NCBI GenBank assembly: GCA_937868765.1
Contig: CALMNL010000008.1
Location: 1-64,000 of the forward strand
Length of the DNA: 64,000 nucleotides
Direction of reading: 5' to 3'
Source of the DNA: an uncultured Desulfatitalea sp.
Lineage (GTDB): Bacteria; Desulfobacterota; Desulfobacteria; Desulfobacterales; Desulfosarcinaceae
The position numbers were made by a program, and so were the translations under genes. The first letter of the stretch is position 1. The number at the start of each line of letters is the position of its first letter. Under the pieces are notes generated by a model. The model was not told where the DNA came from. It was given only the letters and a program-made list of their open reading frames with translations, and made no database searches. Positions 31,871 to 42,595 of the stretch are shown in pieces.

Positions 31871-33369
<1,499 letters not shown>

Positions 33370-33373
<4 letters not shown>

Positions 33374-33939
33374 TCCTGATGATCGATAACTACGATTCCT
33401 TTACCTATAACCTGGTGCAGTATATCGAAGAGATCGGCACCCCCGTGAAGGTGGTGCGCAACGATGCCCTGGACCTGGCCGGCATCGAGGCCCTGCATCC
33501 GACCGCCATCGTCATCTCCCCCGGTCCGGGCGGTCCCAGGGACGCCGGCATCTGCCTTTCCGCCATCCGGCACTTTTCCGGGCGGCTGCCCATCCTGGGG
33601 GTCTGTCTGGGCCATCAGTGCATCGCCGAAGCCTTCGGCGGCACCATCGTGGGCGCCCGGCGGCTGATGCACGGCAAGGTGTCGACCATCACCTGCGACG
33701 GCCAGGGAATCTTCGAGGGCGTCTCCAAGCCCTTCCAGGCCATGCGTTACCATTCGCTGGCCGTGGCGCGGGAGAGCCTGCCGGCCTGCCTGAAGATCAC
33801 CGCCGAAGCCGAAGACCAAGAGATCATGGGCATCCGCCATGTGGAACTCCGGACCGAAGGAATTCAGTTCCATCCCGAGTCGATCATGACGACGATCGGC
33901 AAAAGACTGCTTCGCAATTTCGTGAAGATGATTGGATAA
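33370..33939 (+). CDS. trpG: Anthranilate synthase component II (glutamine amidotransferase)
   Basis: 189 residues. Class I amidotransferase with LGVCLGHQCIAEAFGG (Cys nucleophile), GPGGPRDAG and the His-Glu pair in FHPESIMT. It supplies ammonia to TrpE. It is translationally coupled to trpE and separated from trpD by 17 bases. Without experimental data a shared role with aminodeoxychorismate synthesis (PabA) is possible, as in other bacteria with one amphibolic subunit. Confidence 0.96.
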
Positions 33940-33956
33940 GGATCAGGAGGCTTCCG

Positions 33957-34973
33957 ATGTTTAAGACCTATTTGAAACAGATCATCCAGCGCCGGAATTT
34001 GACCGCCGATCAGATGACCGACATGATGAACACCGTGTTCACCGGCCAGGCCACCGAGGCCCAGATCGGCGCCATGATGGCGGCCCTGGCCACCAAGGGC
34101 GAGACCTTCGAAGAGCTGGCCGGCGCGGCCCAGGCCATGCGCCGCAACGCCCGGCGCATCCAGGCCCTGGGGTCGCCGGTGATGGACACCTGCGGCACGG
34201 GCGGCGACGGGGCCCAGACCTTCAACATCTCGACCACCACGGCCTTCGTGGTGGCCGGCTGCGGCGTCACCGTGGCCAAGCACGGCAACCGGGCCGTGTC
34301 GAGCAAGTGCGGCAGCGCCGACGTGCTCGAGGCCCTGGGCGTCAAGCTCACCACCCCGCCCGAGATCGTGGAAGAGGCCGTGGCGGCCGTGGGCATCGGC
34401 TTTCTCTTCGCGCCGCTTTACCACAGCGCCATGAAGTACGCCGCCAAGCCGCGTCAGGAGCTGGGGGTGCGCTCGATCTTCAACATGCTGGGGCCGCTCA
34501 CCAATCCGGCCTCGGCCAACTGCCAGCTGCTGGGGGTCTTCGCCCCGCCGCTCACCGAGATGTTCGCCCAGGCCCTCAAGCTGCTCGGCGCCCAGTCGGC
34601 CATGGTGGTTCACGGCCATGACGGCCTGGACGAGATCAGTGTGTGCGCCCCCACCCGGGTGAGTGAACTCAAGGCCGGCGCCATCCGCACCTACGACATC
34701 GATCCCCGGCAGTACTTCGGCCGGCTGGCCGAGCCCGCCGAGCTGGCCGGCGGCGACGTGCAGCAGAACGCGGCCATCACCCGAGCGGTGCTCTCCGGTG
34801 AAAAAGGGGCCCGCCGGGAGGTGGTGCTGATCAATGCCGGGGCTGCCCTGGTGGCCGCCGGCAAGGCCGACAATCTGAAGAGCGGCATCGAAAAGGCAGC
34901 GGCGGCCATCGACAGCGGCAAGGCCCTGGAAAAGCTGGAGAAGCTGGCGGCCTACACCCAGGAAAACGGATGA
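33957..34973 (+). CDS. trpD: Anthranilate phosphoribosyltransferase
   Basis: 338 residues, normal length. PRPP-binding GTGGDG motif (DTCGTGGDGAQTFNIST), KHGNRAVSSKCGSADVLEALG and NPASANCQLLGVF are family signatures. It transfers ribose-5-phosphate from PRPP to anthranilate. ATG 33957 is behind AGGAGG. It precedes trpC by 16 bases. Confidence 0.97.
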   Translation: MFKTYLKQIIQRRNLTADQMTDMMNTVFTGQATEAQIGAMMAALATKGETFEELAGAAQAMRRNARRIQALGSPVMDTCGTGGDGAQTFNISTTTAFVVAGCGVTVAKHGNRAVSSKCGSADVLEALGVKLTTPPEIVEEAVAAVGIGFLFAPLYHSAMKYAAKPRQELGVRSIFNMLGPLTNPASANCQLLGVFAPPLTEMFAQALKLLGAQSAMVVHGHDGLDEISVCAPTRVSELKAGAIRTYDIDPRQYFGRLAEPAELAGGDVQQNAAITRAVLSGEKGARREVVLINAGAALVAAGKADNLKSGIEKAAAAIDSGKALEKLEKLAAYTQENG

Positions 34974-34989
34974 CAACAGCGGAGCCATC

Positions 34990-35796
34990 ATGACCATTCT
35001 GGATCGCATCGTTGCGGATAAAAGAGCAGAGGTGGCCCGGGCCGAGGCGATGACCCCCGCCGCCGAGTTGCGGGCGCGCGTCGCCGACATGCCCTGGACG
35101 GCGCGCGGGTTCGAAAAGCGGCTCTCCCGCCCAGGGCCGGGGGGCGTGAACATCATTGCCGAGGTCAAGCGCGCCTCGCCTTCCAAGGGCGATATTTGCC
35201 CGGGTCTGGACGCCGCCGCATGCGCCCGGCAGTACGAAGCCGGCGGTGCCGCGGCCGTTTCCGTGCTCACCGACGGCCCCTATTTCAAGGGCAGCCTGGC
35301 GGATCTGCAACAGGTGCGAGAGGCGGTCTCCCTGCCGGTGTTGCGCAAGGAGTTCATCATCAGTCCTTACCAGTTGTACGAAGCGCGGGCCGCGGGCGCC
35401 GACGCCGTGCTGCTCATCGTGCGCATCCTGTCTGCTCCCCAGCTTGCGGAGCTGCTCGACCTTTCCCGGCACCTGGGCATGGACGCCCTGGTGGAGATCC
35501 ACAGCCCCGAGGACTATGCCGCGGCCCATGTGGTCGGCAGCCGGCTGATCGGCATCAACAACCGCAACCTGGCCACCTTCGACACCAACCTCGCCACGGC
35601 CACGGGGCTGGCGGCCCTGATGGCGCCGGGCGAAACGGCGGTGGCGGCCAGCGGCATCAACAATCGCGGGGATATCGAGCGCACCCTGCAGGGCGGCGTC
35701 TTCAATTTTCTCATCGGCGAAAGCCTGGTGCGCGCCACGGACCGGGTGGCGTTTCTCAGGACCCTGATCCATGGCCATCCCCAAAAAGCGACTTGA
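34990..35796 (+). CDS. trpC: Indole-3-glycerol phosphate synthase
   Basis: 268 residues. IIAEVKRASPSKG, YEAGGAAAVSVLTDGPYFKGS, VLRKEFIISPYQLYEARAAG and GINNRNLATFDTNL are the family's catalytic TIM-barrel segments (Lys, Glu, Asn sites). It converts carboxyphenylamino-deoxyribulose phosphate to indole-3-glycerol phosphate. Separate from trpF, which follows after 52 bases. Confidence 0.97.
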   Translation: MTILDRIVADKRAEVARAEAMTPAAELRARVADMPWTARGFEKRLSRPGPGGVNIIAEVKRASPSKGDICPGLDAAACARQYEAGGAAAVSVLTDGPYFKGSLADLQQVREAVSLPVLRKEFIISPYQLYEARAAGADAVLLIVRILSAPQLAELLDLSRHLGMDALVEIHSPEDYAAAHVVGSRLIGINNRNLATFDTNLATATGLAALMAPGETAVAASGINNRGDIERTLQGGVFNFLIGESLVRATDRVAFLRTLIHGHPQKAT

Positions 35797-35848
35797 CGAA
35801 TGGGCCCATTCAGGATTTAACCCATTCTCCTGAAGGAAGACAGCGGCC

Positions 35849-36538
35849 ATGGATGACACAAAGCCCACCGCTCCCCAAATCAAGGTGTGCGGGTTGACGG
35901 TTCCCGAAGAGGCCGCGGCTTGTGCCGCCCTGGGCGCCGATGCCGTGGGGCTGGTTTTCTTCCCGCCCAGCCCGCGTCACGTGACGCTGGCGCAGGCGGC
36001 CCGCATCACGGCGCTCCTGCCGGAGCGCGTGCGCGCCGCCGGGGTCTTCGTGGATCCCGATCGGGGGTTTTTGGCCGAAGCCATCCGGGCAGGCCGGCTG
36101 CGCGTGGTGCAGTTGCACGGCCAGGAGCCGCCCGAACTGGCGGCCTGGATTCAGGATCGCTATGCGGTGACGGTGCTCAAGGCGCTCTTCATGACCAAAA
36201 AGCCCGCTCTGACCGCCGCGGTTGATTACCCGGTGCCGGCCTTCCTGGTGGAATGCGGCCAGGGGCCGTTGCCGGGCGGCAATGCCCTGCAATGGGATTG
36301 GGGCGCGGCCGCCGATTTCGCCCGCCGCCACCCCACCGTGCTGGCCGGCGGTCTGGATGCGGACAACGTGGCCCAGGCCATTGCCGCCGCCATGCCCCAG
36401 GCCGTGGATGCCAGCTCGGGGCTGGAGGCGGCACCGGGGCGCAAGGATTTGAAAAAAGTCGAACGATTCGTGGCGGCCGTGCGTGGCACGGCCGCGCTGT
36501 ACCGGGAACGAGCGCGGAAACTGAATCCGGTATTTTGA
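35849..36538 (+). CDS. trpF: Phosphoribosylanthranilate isomerase
   Basis: 229 residues. QIKVCGLTVPEEAAA starts the TIM barrel with the catalytic Cys, VGLVFFPPSPRHV and LAGGLDADNVAQAI and VDASSGLEAAPGRKD give the phosphate-binding loops and catalytic Asp. It isomerises N-(5-phosphoribosyl)anthranilate. trpB and trpA do not follow, so tryptophan synthase is encoded elsewhere. Confidence 0.96.
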   Translation: MDDTKPTAPQIKVCGLTVPEEAAACAALGADAVGLVFFPPSPRHVTLAQAARITALLPERVRAAGVFVDPDRGFLAEAIRAGRLRVVQLHGQEPPELAAWIQDRYAVTVLKALFMTKKPALTAAVDYPVPAFLVECGQGPLPGGNALQWDWGAAADFARRHPTVLAGGLDADNVAQAIAAAMPQAVDASSGLEAAPGRKDLKKVERFVAAVRGTAALYRERARKLNPVF

Positions 36539-36586
36539 TTTGAAGTAATCGCTTTAGCGCGTGGTATTTGCATTGAGGAGGCCCGT

Positions 36587-37090
36587 ATGTTGACCGAAAA
36601 CACCCTGGATATTCTGAAAGAGGCCATATTGCTGGAACGGCGGGGGCACGCGTTCTACCAGAAGATCGCCGATCATGCCCGCAACAACACGGTGCGCGAG
36701 TTCTTCCAGATCATGGCCGATGAAGAATTGCGGCACATCAAGATCCTGGAAGATCAATTCAAAGGCTACCAGAGGAACGCCCGCTTCGACGAGTTCGATG
36801 CGCAATCCATCCAGGAGCCCTCCATCGCCAACCTGGTGATCTCCGACGACCTCAAGGCCAAGATCGCCGCCGCCGGCTTCGAAGCGGCCGCCATTTCCGC
36901 GGCCATGTTCATGGAAGAGCAGGCCATCGCGCTCTATGGCGAGCGCGCCCGCCGCGGAGAAGATCCCCGGGAGCGCGCCCTCTACCGCTGGCTGGCCGAC
37001 TGGGAACACGGCCACCTGGTCTTCCTGGCCAAGCTGGACAAGGAGATCAAGGCCGGCATCTGGGAAGACAACCGCTTCTGGCCGATGTAA
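36587..37090 (+). CDS. Ferritin-like diiron protein (rubrerythrin-type)
   Basis: 167 residues of four-helix bundle. The diiron ligands fit EAILLERRGHAFYQ, ADEELRHIKIL, FMEEQAIALYGE and WEHGHLVFL (Glu and ExxH motifs). No C-terminal rubredoxin domain is present, so this is a sulerythrin- or ferritin-like protein. Probable role is peroxide handling or iron binding in an anaerobe, by family analogy. GGAGG precedes ATG 36587. The NUDIX gene begins two bases after its stop. Confidence 0.92.
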   Translation: MLTENTLDILKEAILLERRGHAFYQKIADHARNNTVREFFQIMADEELRHIKILEDQFKGYQRNARFDEFDAQSIQEPSIANLVISDDLKAKIAAAGFEAAAISAAMFMEEQAIALYGERARRGEDPRERALYRWLADWEHGHLVFLAKLDKEIKAGIWEDNRFWPM

Positions 37091-37092
37091 TC

Positions 37093-37539
37093 ATGACCCT
37101 TCCCAAATCCGCCTATCCCGACCACCCCCTGCTGGCCGTCGGCGCCGTGGTGATCCACCAGGGCCGCGTGTTGCTGGTGCGCCGACTGCGGCCGCCGGGA
37201 GAAGGGCAATGGGCTATTCCCGGCGGCAAGGTGGACCTGGGCGAGAACCTGGCCCAGGCCGCCGAGCGCGAAATCCTGGAAGAGACCGGCCTGACCATCG
37301 CCGCCGGCGAGCCGGTCTACACCTTCGAAGTGATCGATCGCGACGACGCCGGCCGGGTGCGCTATCACTACGTGATCATCGATCTGGCGGCCGAGTATCG
37401 GGGCGGCAAATTGCGGGCGGGCGATGACGCCGGCGACGCGCGCTGGGTGGCGCCCGAAGAACTCCCGGCCCTGGGGGTCTACCCGCGCACCCGGGAGCTG
37501 CTCGAGAAATTATTTGATTTCGGAAAAGCGCAAGATTGA
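37093..37539 (+). CDS. NUDIX hydrolase
   Basis: 148 residues. The NUDIX box is complete: GGKVDLGENLAQAAEREILE followed by ETG, giving the G-x5-E-x7-RE-x2-EE-x-G pattern. VGAVVIHQGRVLLVRR starts the fold. It hydrolyses a nucleoside diphosphate-linked substrate, possibly ADP-ribose (the C-terminal helix is like ADP-ribose pyrophosphatases) or a damaged nucleotide. It lies two bases after the ferritin-like gene, so they are translated together. Confidence 0.95.
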   Translation: MTLPKSAYPDHPLLAVGAVVIHQGRVLLVRRLRPPGEGQWAIPGGKVDLGENLAQAAEREILEETGLTIAAGEPVYTFEVIDRDDAGRVRYHYVIIDLAAEYRGGKLRAGDDAGDARWVAPEELPALGVYPRTRELLEKLFDFGKAQD

Positions 37540-37545
37540 ACGGTT

Positions 37546-38823
37546 CTATGCCGTTTTTTTACTTTCCGGCGTCGGCCGCAGGTACGCCCCCCAGTAGCTC
37601 ATGCCCACGAACACGGCCCCGCCGATGATGTTGCCGATGGTGACCGGCAGCAGGTTGTTCCACAGGCAGGCGAACCAGGTCAGGCTGTCGGCATCGTAGG
37701 CGGCCGGGCCGGCGATGCCGGCCCACTGGTGCAGCACCAGGGCCGCCGGGATGAAGTACATGTTGGCCACGCAGTGCTCGAAGCCGATGGCGACGAAGCC
37801 CATGATGGGGAAGAAGATGGCGAAGATCTTGCCGATGGTCTGGCGGGCGGCCAGGGCCATCCAGACGGCCAGGCACACCAGCCAGTTGCAGCCGATGCCG
37901 CGGGCCAGGGCTTCGGTGAAGCTCAGGTTCACCTTGGCGTAGCCGATGGCCACGGCGCCGGCGCCCAAGGCGCCGTTGGCGATCTTCCACAGGCCTGAGT
38001 AGTAAAACAGGGCCACCAGCAGCAGCGATCCGGCGAAGTTGGCGGCAAAGACAAGCAGCCAGCGCTGGCCCATGGTTTTGAGGGTGATCTCCCGGGACAT
38101 GACGCTGGAGACCATCAGGTTGTTGCCGGTGAACAGTTCGGCGCCGGCGATGACCACCAGCATCAGGCCGAGGCTGAAGGCCGAGCCCGCGACGATCTTG
38201 GTGACGCCCACGCCGGCCTTGGCCGCCAGGTCGAAGGTCACGCTGGTGGAGAGCAGGCCGCCGAAGCCGATGTAGGCCCCGGCCAGGATGCCCAGGACGC
38301 ACACGCTGAACCAGGGCGAGGTGGCCTTGCCCACGCCGATGGTCGAGGCCACGGTCTCGGCGATGGTTTTGGGGGCTTTGTCTTCCAGCGTCGGCACGGG
38401 GAACTGGAAGGATTTCATGACGCTTTCCAGGCGGCCGATGCTCTTCTTCTCCTGGAGCACCTTGTTGCGGGTGGCCTTCTGGACCGCTTCCAGGATCTCT
38501 TCGGGCGTGAAGGGCTTGGAGACGAAATCCATGGCGCCGCGCTTCATGGCGTCGGTGGCGCGGCCCACCGTGGGATAGCCGCTGATCATCACCACGGCCG
38601 ATTGCGGGCAGATGGCGTCGAGCCGTTCGACCACGTCCATGCCGTCGAACTCGGGCATCTGCCAGTCGCAGAGGATGACATCGAAGTTCTTCCGGGCGGC
38701 CAGCTCCAATCCTTCCCGGGGGCTGGCGGTGGTCACCACATCGTACTGTTCGGAGCTGAACACCCGGCGGCACGATTCCAGCACCACCGGATCGTCGTCG
38801 ATCACCAGCATGCGTTCCGCCAT
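37546..38823 (-). CDS. Response-regulator receiver fused to FNT (formate/nitrite-type) channel
   Basis: 425 residues in one uninterrupted frame with AAGGAGG before ATG 38823. Residues 1-120 form a complete receiver: acidic pocket D9-D11, phospho-acceptor D53 (VILCDWQMPE), and the KPFTPEE lysine. After a short linker, residues about 155-415 form an FNT-type channel with six hydrophobic segments: AGAELFTGNNLMVSSVM, the pore histidine motif FEHCVANMYF (about H350) and WNNLLPVTIGNIIGGA. FNT proteins pass formate, nitrite, hydrosulfide or acetate as pentamers. A phosphorylation-controlled channel is inferred. An in-frame ATG at 38418 with GGAAAG upstream could also make a 290-residue channel without the receiver. 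It is the last gene of the kinase-receiver cluster. Confidence 0.93.
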   Translation of the reverse strand: MAERMLVIDDDPVVLESCRRVFSSEQYDVVTTASPREGLELAARKNFDVILCDWQMPEFDGMDVVERLDAICPQSAVVMISGYPTVGRATDAMKRGAMDFVSKPFTPEEILEAVQKATRNKVLQEKKSIGRLESVMKSFQFPVPTLEDKAPKTIAETVASTIGVGKATSPWFSVCVLGILAGAYIGFGGLLSTSVTFDLAAKAGVGVTKIVAGSAFSLGLMLVVIAGAELFTGNNLMVSSVMSREITLKTMGQRWLLVFAANFAGSLLLVALFYYSGLWKIANGALGAGAVAIGYAKVNLSFTEALARGIGCNWLVCLAVWMALAARQTIGKIFAIFFPIMGFVAIGFEHCVANMYFIPAALVLHQWAGIAGPAAYDADSLTWFACLWNNLLPVTIGNIIGGAVFVGMSYWGAYLRPTPESKKTA

Positions 38824-39493: not shown

Positions 39494-40102
39494 TTAACGG
39501 GCTTCGAACAGTTTTTTGTGTTTGGGCTCAAGGGCACCCATGTACTGCTCGAGCCACTCCACGTCGCCGGTGACCAGCGCCAATCTCTCCGCGGCCGTCA
39601 GGTCGTACCCTTCCAGGGCCTCGGCCTCGCGGGTCTGCAGATCCCGCGCGAAGTCCGGGTTGCGGGCGGCGCGGTTGAGGACCTTGCGAATCTCTTCGTC
39701 ATGGATGATGCCCTGCTCTTCGGGCACGGCCTGGGATGACTGCTCGAGAACCGACCGCACTACCTGCGCCAGTTCTTCGGGCGTAAACGGTTTCTCCAGG
39801 ACATGGGCCGCCCCCATGCGCATGCACTGGATGGCCGAAGAGACCGTGGCGTAGCCGGAGACGATCACCACCGGCAGGGACGGCTTGACCCGCTTGATTT
39901 CGCGCAAGACGATCTTGCCGCTCAGGTCGGGCATGCGCACATCGGTCAACACCAGGTCATAGGCCCGCTGGGCGGCCCACTGGATGCCCTCCTTGGCGTG
40001 CAGGGTGGTGTCCACCGTGCAATTCTCATCCGAGAGAATGCGGCGCACGCTGTCCAATACGATCTGCTCGTCATCGATGGCCAGTACTTTTTTCGGCGTC
40101 AT
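39494..40102 (-). CDS. Response regulator with the same C-terminal helical domain
   Basis: 202 residues from ATG 40102 (GGGGA upstream). Receiver with DLVLTDVRMPDLSGK phospho-acceptor region and LEKPFTPEE lysine. The C-terminal part (EEQGIIHDEEIRKVLNRAA to YDLTAAERLALVTGDVEWLE) is clearly a paralogue of the C-terminus of the next gene, and both begin with an EEQG motif. Start overlaps the upstream single-domain regulator by four bases. Such paired regulators may act as phospho-sinks or protein-interaction adaptors; no DNA-binding domain is present. Confidence 0.88.
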   Translation of the reverse strand: MTPKKVLAIDDEQIVLDSVRRILSDENCTVDTTLHAKEGIQWAAQRAYDLVLTDVRMPDLSGKIVLREIKRVKPSLPVVIVSGYATVSSAIQCMRMGAAHVLEKPFTPEELAQVVRSVLEQSSQAVPEEQGIIHDEEIRKVLNRAARNPDFARDLQTREAEALEGYDLTAAERLALVTGDVEWLEQYMGALEPKHKKLFEAR

Positions 40103-40476
40103 GGTTTGTTCCCCTTTCTTGCCACGGAGAGGACTGTGTCCAGCAGTTCTCCGGGTGTGAACGGCTTGGCGATGAACGTCGCCGCGCCGAATATCGCCGC
40201 GTTTTCCACGGTTTCGTCGGTGGGATAACCGCTCATCACGACGATGGGCAGTTGCGGATGCTTGGCTTTGACCTGGCGCATCAGGTACATGCCGTCGTGC
40301 ACGGGCATCTTGACGTCCACCAGCAGCAGGGACGGCAAGGGCGCGCCGGGCGCATCGAGCAGGGCCAGGGCCTCGTCCACCGATGGGGCGGCCTGCACTT
40401 CGAACCCTTCGGCTTCGAGAATTCGGCGGCAACTGAGCAGGACGATGCCTTCGTCATCGACCACGAGGATTTTCAT
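40099..40476 (-). CDS. Single-domain response regulator (CheY-like)
   Basis: 125 residues, receiver only. DDEG acidic pocket, LLLVDVKMPVHDGM phospho-acceptor region, MSGYP, and IAKPFTPGE lysine. It overlaps the histidine kinase gene upstream by four bases and the next regulator downstream by four bases. It is likely the primary acceptor from the kinase or a relay to the other receivers. Confidence 0.95.
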   Translation of the reverse strand: MKILVVDDEGIVLLSCRRILEAEGFEVQAAPSVDEALALLDAPGAPLPSLLLVDVKMPVHDGMYLMRQVKAKHPQLPIVVMSGYPTDETVENAAIFGAATFIAKPFTPGELLDTVLSVARKGNKP

Positions 40477-42398
40477 GACTTACCCCCTGTGCCTTCAATG
40501 GGCAGCCAGACAAAGAAGCGGGTGCCTTTGCCCATCTCGCTCTGCACGCGGATGTGGCCCTGATGACGCTGGACGATGCCCTGTGAGACGGAAAGTCCCA
40601 GCCCGGTTCCCTGTCCGACGGCCTTGGTAGTAAAAAACGGATCGAACAGCTTGTCCATGTGCTCGGCGGGGATGCCGCTGCCGGTGTCGGCCACGGTGAT
40701 CTCCACCCCCTTGTGAACCGCGCCGTCGCCCGAAAGTGCCGGGGCCGTGAAGATTTTGATCTGGCCGCCGGGCGGCGTGGCATCCAGGGCGTTGATGATC
40801 AGGTTCATCAGCACGCTCTGCATCTGGCTGCGGTCCAGGGTCACCATGGGCAGGTTCTCCCCTGCCATGAACTTGACCGCGACTCCTTTGACCAAGGCCT
40901 GGTTCTCGAGCAGCCCCACCGTGGCGCCCACCAGGCGGTTGATGTCGGTCGGCTCGGGGTCCAGCTTGGTCTGGCGGGAGAAGTCCAGCAGCCCCTTGAC
41001 GATCTTGCGCACGCGCTCGGTGGCTGCGGCGATGGTCTCCAGGTCCGCGCGCATCTCGGTATTCAGATCCTTGCGGCGCAGCAGCATGTGCGTATAGGTG
41101 AGCACGCCGGTGAGCGGGTTGTTGATCTCATGGGCCACGCCGGCCGCCAGGCGACCCACGCTGGCCTGCTTTTCGGACTGGATGATCCTGTCTTCGCTGG
41201 CCGCCCGGCGGCGGCCCACAGCGGCCACCATCTCCAGAAAAGTCTTCTGCAGCCGGCCGAATTCACCTTCCTTGATCGGTCCCACATCTGGCGTGAGGCT
41301 GCCTTCGGAGACCTGGCGGCTCGCCTTGATCAGGCGGTGCACCGGCCCCATGATGCGATTGGCCAGCAGGACGCCGAACCCCAGGGCCACGATCATGCCC
41401 GCGCCCGTGATGAGGATGAAGACCGTGAGGGCCCGGGTGAGAATGTCGGTGTACTTCGCTTCCAGGGTGCCCACATAGAACATGCCTACCCGGCGGCCGA
41501 AGATATCTTCCAGCGGTTCATAGGCCGTGATGTACCAGTCGCTGAGCACCCAGGCGCGGCCGGACCAGCGCCGGCCCTGGTCCAGAACGGCCGCCTTGAC
41601 TTCCGCCGAAACCCGGGTGCCCACGGCGCGGCGGCCGTCGGGCAGGGTCACGTTGGTGGCGATGCGCAGGTCGTTGAGGAACACGGTCGCCGTGGCGATG
41701 GGCCGGCCCTTGTAGCTCTCCCCCTGGGACAACCGGTTGCGCACCATGTCCACCAGGGTTTCATCGCGGTTGAGCAGCTGGCCACCATAGAGGACGCCGA
41801 CCACCCGGCTGCCTTCGAAGATGGGCACGGCCGCGGCCAGGGCCAGGCCGCTGGTTGCTTCGGCGGCGGCAGCCGCCTCGGCACCCAGGTCAGGGATGGC
41901 GATGCGCGCCCGCTCGGCCAGCTCCGGATCTTCATGGAGCAGCATCTCCCGGGTGAGCACCACGATGCCCTCCACCGAAGACTGCCGTTCCAGCGCCATC
42001 CGGCCGATGGGGTTTTCGGCGGGGATGCGCTGGATTTTGGCATTGGGGCCCAGGCGGGAGAGGATATTGCCATCCGTGCCGAGGATACCGGCGAAATCCA
42101 GCTTGGCGTGGTGGGCCAGGCGGCTGAGGCGGTAGGCCAGGTCGTTGGGATCGGCCGCTTCCACGGAGCCGACGAAGCCGCTGCCCAGCGAGGTGATGTT
42201 CAGGGCCGTGCGGATCAGGCGGATGCGCTCCTGGATCATTTCGGAGCCGGCATTCAGATCCAGCGCCACCCGGTTGGCGGCTTCGCCGATGACATGCTTC
42301 TTGAGCAGGTGCACCCCGGTCCACAGAGAGACCGCGCCCACCAGCAGCGTCACGCCGAGCAGACTGGCAATCAACTTGGATCGGATGGAAGTGAACAT
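40473..42398 (-). CDS. Cache-HAMP sensor histidine kinase
   Basis: 641 residues. TM1 about 8-26, a periplasmic Cache-type domain (about 30-290: [36 protein letters not shown]), TM2 about 305-330, HAMP, coiled coil, DHp with H423 ([19 protein letters not shown]), and HATPase_c ([21 protein letters not shown]). The periplasmic ligand could be a small organic acid, as for many Cache sensors; this would fit an FNT channel for formate, but it is inference. ATG 42398 is behind AAGGAGG and the stop overlaps the next gene by four bases. It heads the cluster of four receivers. Confidence 0.95.
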
Positions 42399-42595
42399 GC
42401 GGCTCTGCCTCCTTTGCAACCCTCACACCGCTTCACATGAGCAAGCCACATGCCATTGGTCCGGACCTGCCTGAAATGGGCGCAAGCCGCTGGAATCACA
42501 TGGCCACTGGGACCGGCCAGGCGCGCCGGCCCAGATCCTCGGCGGTGGGAGGTGTCTGGATTTTTTACGATTTGTAAATTGCTGGATGGCGCGAC

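Follow-up and report, generated by a model that had tools for sequence, protein, structure and literature searches.

The outputs of two-component systems are mostly transcription, enzymes or protein contacts. Cache-kinase systems with receiver-only regulators resemble the locus described here in that a complete kinase and receivers lie in one operon, and differ from it in that here the second domain of one response regulator is a membrane channel of the formate/nitrite transporter (FNT) family. The nearest fusion of a transport protein with a two-component domain in one chain that we found is Ks-Amt5, in which the Amt ammonium transporter module does the sensing and carries a histidine kinase; the presumed logic is reversed here, with a receiver as the attached domain and the channel as the presumed output.

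In FNT channels the N- and C-termini of the protomers are reported to be cytoplasmic (PMC5572259), and in Escherichia coli PflB contacts the N-terminal helix of FocA and is presumed to gate the channel, and removal of this helix severely disrupted translocation in vivo (PMC11841067). The protein described here shares with FocA a full FNT domain, the pore positions, the fold and a helix at the place of the N-terminal helix; it differs in adding an N-terminal receiver and a long helix, in scoring below the FocA equivalog cut-off, in belonging to another clade and in having no recognised pflB alongside. Formate chemoreceptors (8py0, 8py1, PacF and McpF, with sCache_3_3 or Cache_3-Cache_2 domains) have the same sensor module and R/T/T spacing as the kinase of this locus; the known ones serve chemotaxis, whereas here the module is the membrane-proximal half of the sensor of a histidine kinase encoded beside a channel gene. 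No description of a receiver-FNT fusion was found in the literature searched, which comprised titles and abstract openings and had most subscription papers and bioRxiv outside it, and the main text of a survey of 2,206 FNT sequences contains none of the words "response regulator", "receiver", "fused" or "fusion" (PMC5525234).

Here we analyze such a fusion and its operon in the window, the whole 64,000-nucleotide stretch of an uncultured Desulfatitalea sp. (Table 1). We propose a formate two-component system whose terminal response regulator is a phosphorylation-gated channel, most likely for formate, a reading that we hold to be evenly poised between right and wrong.

Table 1. Positions of the fusion gene, its parts and its operon partners in the window, and of ferritin-like FNT fusions at other loci
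Feature	Position	Strand	Basis or remark
REC-FNT fusion gene	37546..38823	-	One open frame, 425 aa
Receiver domain, residues 6-115	38479..38808	-	Pfam PF00072 Response_reg, E 7e-28, nearly full-length profile
Phospho-acceptor D53 codon	38665-38667	-	Within receiver domain
Linker, residues 120-149: extended receiver helix alpha5 and short loop	38377..38466	-	AlphaFold2 model
FNT channel domain, residues 160-411	37591..38346	-	Pfam PF01226 Form_Nir_trans, E 1.4e-77, nearly full-length profile
Pore H350 codon	37774-37776	-	Within FNT domain; other pore residues T232, K297, N313
RR2, receiver with conserved tail of ~75 aa	38852..39478	-	Pfam; upstream of fusion
RR3, receiver with similar tail	39494..40102	-	Pfam; start at ATG 40102 from reading of the sequence
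RR4, stand-alone receiver, 125 aa	40099..40476	-	Pfam
Histidine kinase: double-Cache-like sensor, HAMP, HisKA (H430), HATPase_c	40473..42419	-	Pfam; H-box HEINNP; AlphaFold2 model of sensor
sCache_3_3 module of kinase, residues 216-328, with R252, T255, T268	41436..41774	-	Pfam, E 3.8e-28
Ferritin-like FNT fusion	L133:2647-3939	+	
Ferritin-like FNT fusion	L134:4785-6077	-	
Ferritin-like FNT fusion	L135:5094-6386	-	
Ferritin-like FNT fusion	L136:1-1515	-	Cut by stretch end; outside Pfam scan

A receiver and an FNT channel in one reading frame

The earlier note on this DNA had claimed, from the motifs D9-D11, D53, KPF and FEHCVANM, that a complete receiver is joined in one frame to a full FNT channel, and this is confirmed by the intact 425-residue frame and by both Pfam domains. 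The frame runs on the minus strand from an ATG at 38823 to a stop at 37546 without an internal stop, AAGGAGG lies a short way 5' of the ATG, and all of the motifs are found in the protein, with D9, D10, D11, D53 and K103-P-F in the receiver and FEHCVANM at residues 348-355. A promoter and terminator scan returned zero promoter-like sites and 6 terminator-like sites against 4.1 expected.

An AlphaFold2 monomer model of the fusion (54-row alignment; mean pLDDT 90, overall pTM 0.66) has receiver-like strands and helices, a helix at 107-139, a helix at 151-168 and then the channel helices, with low confidence at about 140-150 and pLDDT below 50 at residues 140-142. In the model a helix occupies the position of the FocA N-terminal helix, preceded by the receiver via the long alpha5. 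Across 40 fusions, linker residues 120-139 are poorly conserved (49% mean pairwise identity) and linker lengths vary by just 2 residues.

Recurrence of the fusion across genomes

A scan of a genome collection confirmed 184 stretches, of which the best 80 were kept; these gave 79 loci, and a full-length fusion is present at 37 of the loci. The fusion counts reported here are therefore lower bounds, and they leave out three broken copies (L060, L063 and L065) and two contig-cut copies (L058 and L059). Together with the window protein and two proteins from relatives, these 37 form a 40-row alignment, so that end-to-end alignment extends to at least 40 full-length REC-FNT proteins, whose record titles cover three phyla and include isolates. 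Going by these titles, the records come from Desulfobacterota groups, Spirochaetes and Acidobacteria and include isolates as well as whole chromosomes; those of the carriers Desulfosarcina alkanivorans PL12, Desulfosediminicola flagellatus IMCC35005 and Desulforhopalus sp. IMCC35007 bear no MAG label. As to whether the order REC-FNT recurs or homologues are always separate proteins, the two possibilities raised earlier, it recurs in at least 40 full-length fused homologues with receiver and pore residues intact. The window frame also runs from one domain into the other without a stop. Because the 40 homologues align end to end, the fusion cannot be put down to chance or assembly error, and with some of them in records not marked as MAGs we rule out an assembly or frameshift artefact.

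The source genome (5.36 Mb) gave one FNT match in all, the window fusion. Of 297 genomes drawn from the phylum, this one included, 51 have an FNT match; their 52 matches comprise 8 REC-FNT proteins, 4 ferritin-like fusions and 3 fragments too short to classify, among others. The 11 genomes of the genus set, again with the source genome included, divide into five with the fusion, two with a stand-alone FNT and four with nothing above receiver matches.

The ferritin-like fusions constitute a second type of N-terminal FNT fusion, in which a ferritin-like/rubrerythrin domain precedes a divergent FNT domain; the four genomes that have it belong to one family in the same phylum. The broken copies at L060, L063 and L065 are fusion genes split into shorter separate frames, through decay or sequencing error, and L063 and L065 retain a whole kinase upstream. 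L079 (449 aa) is not a further fusion, being a long open frame without a second Pfam domain. At L062 the match starts in the linker, and the protein has no receiver.

A FocA-like channel outside the FocA clade

The channel half belongs to the FNT family by its full-length domain (PF01226, 260.7 bits against a cut-off of 34.6) and its conserved pore residues, and the window fusion also scores above the cut-off of TIGR00790 (241.4 against 232.3 bits). Relative to the FocA pore residues listed in PMC9380403, the equivalents of T91, K156, N172, E208, H209, N213 and N262 are each present in 40/40 fusions, the equivalent of D88 is E in 40/40, and the position of S210 varies. A Foldseek search with the fusion model returned E. 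coli FocA first (9g49; TM 0.92 by target, 36% identity), and in sequence scores against solved structures FocA (177 and 166 bits) stands ahead of LciA (132), HSC (98) and NirC (96).

In a tree of 113 FNT tips, mostly chosen for likeness to the query, the fused FNT domains form one clade (0.881) with the stand-alone FNT of L062 as sister (0.991) and other short FNT proteins near. The node that unites the 40 fused domains covers 48 tips, the eight extra ones being four fusions from the phylum draw, the pieces of L060, L063 and L065, and the contig-cut L058. Because the FNT domains of the fusions form one clade, a single fusion event would be the simplest reading of the tree, and independent, convergent fusions are unsupported in the sampled set. 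E. coli FocA falls elsewhere, within another clade of 10 tips (0.999); when the 69 non-fused tips are ordered by distance from the window protein it comes 68th, a low rank that is partly built in, since the tips were for the most part selected as similar to the query. The window fusion also falls below the cut-off of TIGR04060, the FocA equivalog (227.4 against 290.1 bits). We reject FocA as the family name on these two grounds: the fused FNT is FocA-like in pore and fold, yet not FocA proper.

The distance of the fused clade from E. coli FocA makes the substrate less certain and lowers the chances of a formate loop. The fusion, itself real, may be regulated by phosphorylation but carry nitrite, hydrosulfide, acetate or bicarbonate, in which case the formate-to-formate loop fails. 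Besides that distance, such a channel would fit with LciA, titled a bicarbonate transporter, among the closest structures, and with the organism itself, which has dsrA and so probably makes sulfide; set against this are the best solved-structure scores, which belong to FocA rather than to LciA, HSC or NirC, and the formate type of the kinase sensor described below. We judge another anion unlikely, though deserving of some weight, and retain formate as the preferred substrate. In the source genome, two FdhA matches exceed the cut-off, each with one internal TGA that may code for selenocysteine, and one FTHFS and one dsrA over the cut-off were found; from this gene content the organism is probably a sulfate reducer with formate metabolism.

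The fused receiver and the other receivers of the operon

The receiver of the fusion keeps the features by which response regulators are recognised, namely an acid pair, a phospho-acceptor Asp, a Ser/Thr and a Lys. D9, D10, D53, P57, K103, P104 and F105 are each present in 40/40 fusions, position 11 is D in 24/40 and E in 16/40, and S81 is S in 39/40 and T in 1/40.

We placed this receiver in a tree of 193 receivers (FastTree supports, midpoint root). The 40 fused receivers form one clade (0.995), whose sister is a clade of 24 RR2/RR3 receivers (0.998; join 0.912), followed by 36 RR4 receivers (0.898). None of 91 other receivers of the source genome falls inside the operon-receiver group, these 91 being a sample from 90 stretches taken from the 150 matches listed in that genome. 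Two of the 26 sequences labelled RR2/RR3 by best match, from L025 and L040, lie outside the RR2/RR3 clade, and one of these is the receiver-kinase of L025. The sequences thus indicate a common origin of the operon receivers. Because the fused, RR2/RR3 and RR4 receivers group together, the fused receiver probably arose by duplication inside the operon, and one kinase shared by all of them would be the simplest reading.

Helix alpha1 of a receiver is the face that contacts the kinase. At this helix RR3 and RR4 each share 6/12 residues with the fused receiver, with one unrelated receiver tying for best, and RR2 shares 4/12, below an unrelated receiver with 5; the operon receivers were counted twice in this comparison (as locus L167), which raises the background slightly.

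Receivers that act as phosphate sinks are known from other systems, and with several receivers per operon the fused one could mainly be a sink or scaffold, its FNT part anchoring receivers at the membrane beside the kinase and its channel constitutively open. A conserved pore would be needless for a sink, yet eight pore positions are invariant in 40/40 fusions, and mean pairwise identity across the fusions is higher in the FNT part than in the receiver (72% against 65%). We consider this account improbable and favor a channel under the control of its receiver.

Conservation of the operon

The genes upstream of the fusion are closely packed: the kinase and RR4 overlap by 4 bases, the RR3 ATG at 40102 overlaps the RR4 stop by 4 bases, and 28 bases separate RR2 from the fusion. 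The RR3 frame is open further upstream, and its Pfam scan used six extra residues before the ATG, the source of a nominal 22-base overlap. The kinase start is TTG as listed, with an alternative ATG at 42398. The tail of RR2 and RR3 has the approximate consensus ALDEFNLTGPEKLAILTGDIxWIE...WLEQRLSAEIW and occurs also at related loci; in Pfam at E up to 1 it has no match in RR2 and weak sub-cut-off matches in RR3, for example PF14407.

Neighbours were counted at 44 distinct fusion loci, 41 of which have at least 2.5 kb upstream (3 do not). A Cache histidine kinase lies upstream on the same strand in 39/41, a stand-alone receiver (RR4-like by our cut-off) in 36/41, and an RR2-like protein, a receiver with the ~75-residue tail, in 16/41. 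Together with the receiver clade, the placement of the kinase lends indirect support to phosphorylation of the fused receiver by this kinase. The expectation that the fusion always sits beside a Cache kinase thus holds at 39 of the 41 loci and gives way at L038 and L048, where a kinase of this type is absent from the whole fetched stretch. At L025 (6727-7857) and L032 (6783-7913) a receiver-histidine kinase gene, identified by Pfam for L025, is situated between the stand-alone receiver and the fusion.

The adjoining part of the window (31871-37539) ends with a rubrerythrin gene (36587-37090) and then a NUDIX gene (37093-37539), convergent with the fusion; the frames beside the system from 31871 we take, trp names included, to be a tryptophan operon. 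No formate enzyme was recognised among the window frames between 30000 and 46000, by reading and by Pfam on eight frames. This bears on the possibility that phosphorylation sets the binding of a formate-producing or formate-using enzyme at the cytoplasmic face while the pore itself is unmoved. A precedent would be PflB, which binds the N-terminal helix of FocA and is itself required for translocation in vivo (PMC11841067); against it, no such enzyme was recognised in that part of the window, and the fusion has no known partner. We give control of a partner a slim chance, and direct gating of the pore is the reading that we pursue.

A formate-type sensor in the operon kinase

The earlier note had suggested that the Cache kinase could sense the channel's own anion. 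On the window kinase the sCache_3_3 profile scores 98.4 bits against a cut-off of 28.8, and five further operon kinases that were scanned match it as well (5/5). Sequence searches of the PDB with the periplasmic part gave two matches, 8py1 (E 1e-6) and 8py0 (E 1.7e-5), which are titled as sensor domains of chemoreceptors from Asticcacaulis benevestitus and Oscillibacter ruminantium complexed with formate. By Foldseek, 4/5 listed chains of 8py0 and 8py1 align over 110-116 columns at 1.9-2.4 Å with 28-31% identity, and the fifth over 144 columns at 8.4 Å; larger double-Cache sensors with other ligands outrank them by E-value, with a loose fit over the whole model, mostly at an rmsd of 7-9 Å.

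Changes at R142, T145 and T158 of PacF affected formate binding (PMC12501870). R252, T255 and T268 of the kinase have the same spacing (3 and 16), the PacF positions being matched via this spacing and the alignment to 8py1 rather than to PacF itself. Across 40 distinct operon kinases the triad is R in 39/40, T in 40/40 and T in 39/40. All of these kinases are at least 45% identical to the window kinase (42 rows with two identical pairs; 33 of the 40 are in alignment A3); the set includes the kinases of L063 and L065 and leaves out the partial kinase of L050. The new observation here is that the sCache_3_3 module of the kinase matches formate-bound chemoreceptor structures and keeps the R/T/T triad.

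A Desulfobacula kinase with the same operon order (L036:4971-6920) has C and A in place of the R and one T of the triad; the accompanying fusion is intact, and this kinase may therefore have acquired a different ligand. The source genome has two further sCache_3_3 proteins, L248:6350-8374 (G000:C4) and G000:C9:77046-77393, and since both carry the triad it is a general trait of sCache_3_3 domains; to take it as operon-specific proof of formate sensing would be too strong. The first of the two is a second sCache_3_3 kinase, in a genome whose sole FNT match is the window fusion.

In the double-Cache topology read from the AlphaFold2 sensor model, the module forms the C-terminal half, nearest the membrane, and so departs from known members, in which it is a single Cache or the distal half of a double Cache; PacF binds formate in the distal module. 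A chemoreceptor sCache_3_3 domain with the reported formate residues is reported to have bound formate (PMC12415202). In the formate chemoreceptor Atu0526, R115A raised formate affinity yet abolished the response (PMC8698456), and for that reason the triad arginine may serve signalling more than binding. By sequence, the sensor of the kinase is of formate type, and the suggestion of a shared ion thereby becomes a specific prediction. That suggestion is borne out as to the sensor, whose type binds formate in chemoreceptors, and is less certain as to the anion of the channel, given the distance of the fused clade from E. coli FocA.

The direction of signalling might also be the reverse: an anion passing through or occupying the channel could alter the conformation of the attached receiver, hence its gain or loss of phosphate, and so report flux to the kinase and the other receivers. 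Transporter modules with two-component domains can sense, as Ks-Amt5 with a histidine kinase on its Amt module illustrates, and most operons hold at least one other receiver able to compete for phosphate. In the present fusion, however, what is attached is a receiver and not a transmitter, a kinase with a formate-type sensor is already present in the operon, and the pore residues essential for transport by FocA are kept, unlike in a channel turned pure sensor. We regard such feedback as very unlikely and return to the channel as output.

Proposed mechanism and implications

In the proposed circuit, the membrane kinase would bind periplasmic formate through its sCache_3_3 module, which would change its autophosphorylation, and phosphate would pass to the operon receivers, D53 of the fused receiver among them. 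Since FNT protomers have both termini in the cytoplasm, the receiver would be positioned opposite the cytoplasmic part of the kinase. It would precede the equivalent of the FocA gating helix on its N-terminal side and be joined to it via the extended alpha5 helix. Phosphorylation would then rearrange the five receivers of a predicted pentamer, move the gating-helix equivalent and open, or possibly close, the pore. In this probable sulfate reducer with formate dehydrogenases, the likeliest use would be an import or export of formate that follows sensing closely and bypasses transcription. For the circuit in full, in which the kinase binds periplasmic formate and, by phosphorylating the receiver part of a formate channel, gates that channel directly, our confidence is tentative and falls a little short of an even chance. 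What is confirmed, in a stronger form than first stated, is a conserved system that pairs a sensor of formate type with a channel of the formate family.

If the proposal is true, these proteins would be a class of response regulators with an anion channel as output, and going by record titles their anaerobic carriers span at least three phyla. With the receiver and the pore in one chain, phosphorylation would set anion flux directly, and an FNT channel would possess a definite gate that can be switched; for FocA, gating by a partner via its N-terminal helix is so far presumed. A widespread set of kinases would also gain a candidate ligand, and laboratories a channel that can be switched. Because formate is important in carrying electrons from one anaerobe to another, a fast formate valve in sulfate reducers would bear on how such partnerships are controlled.
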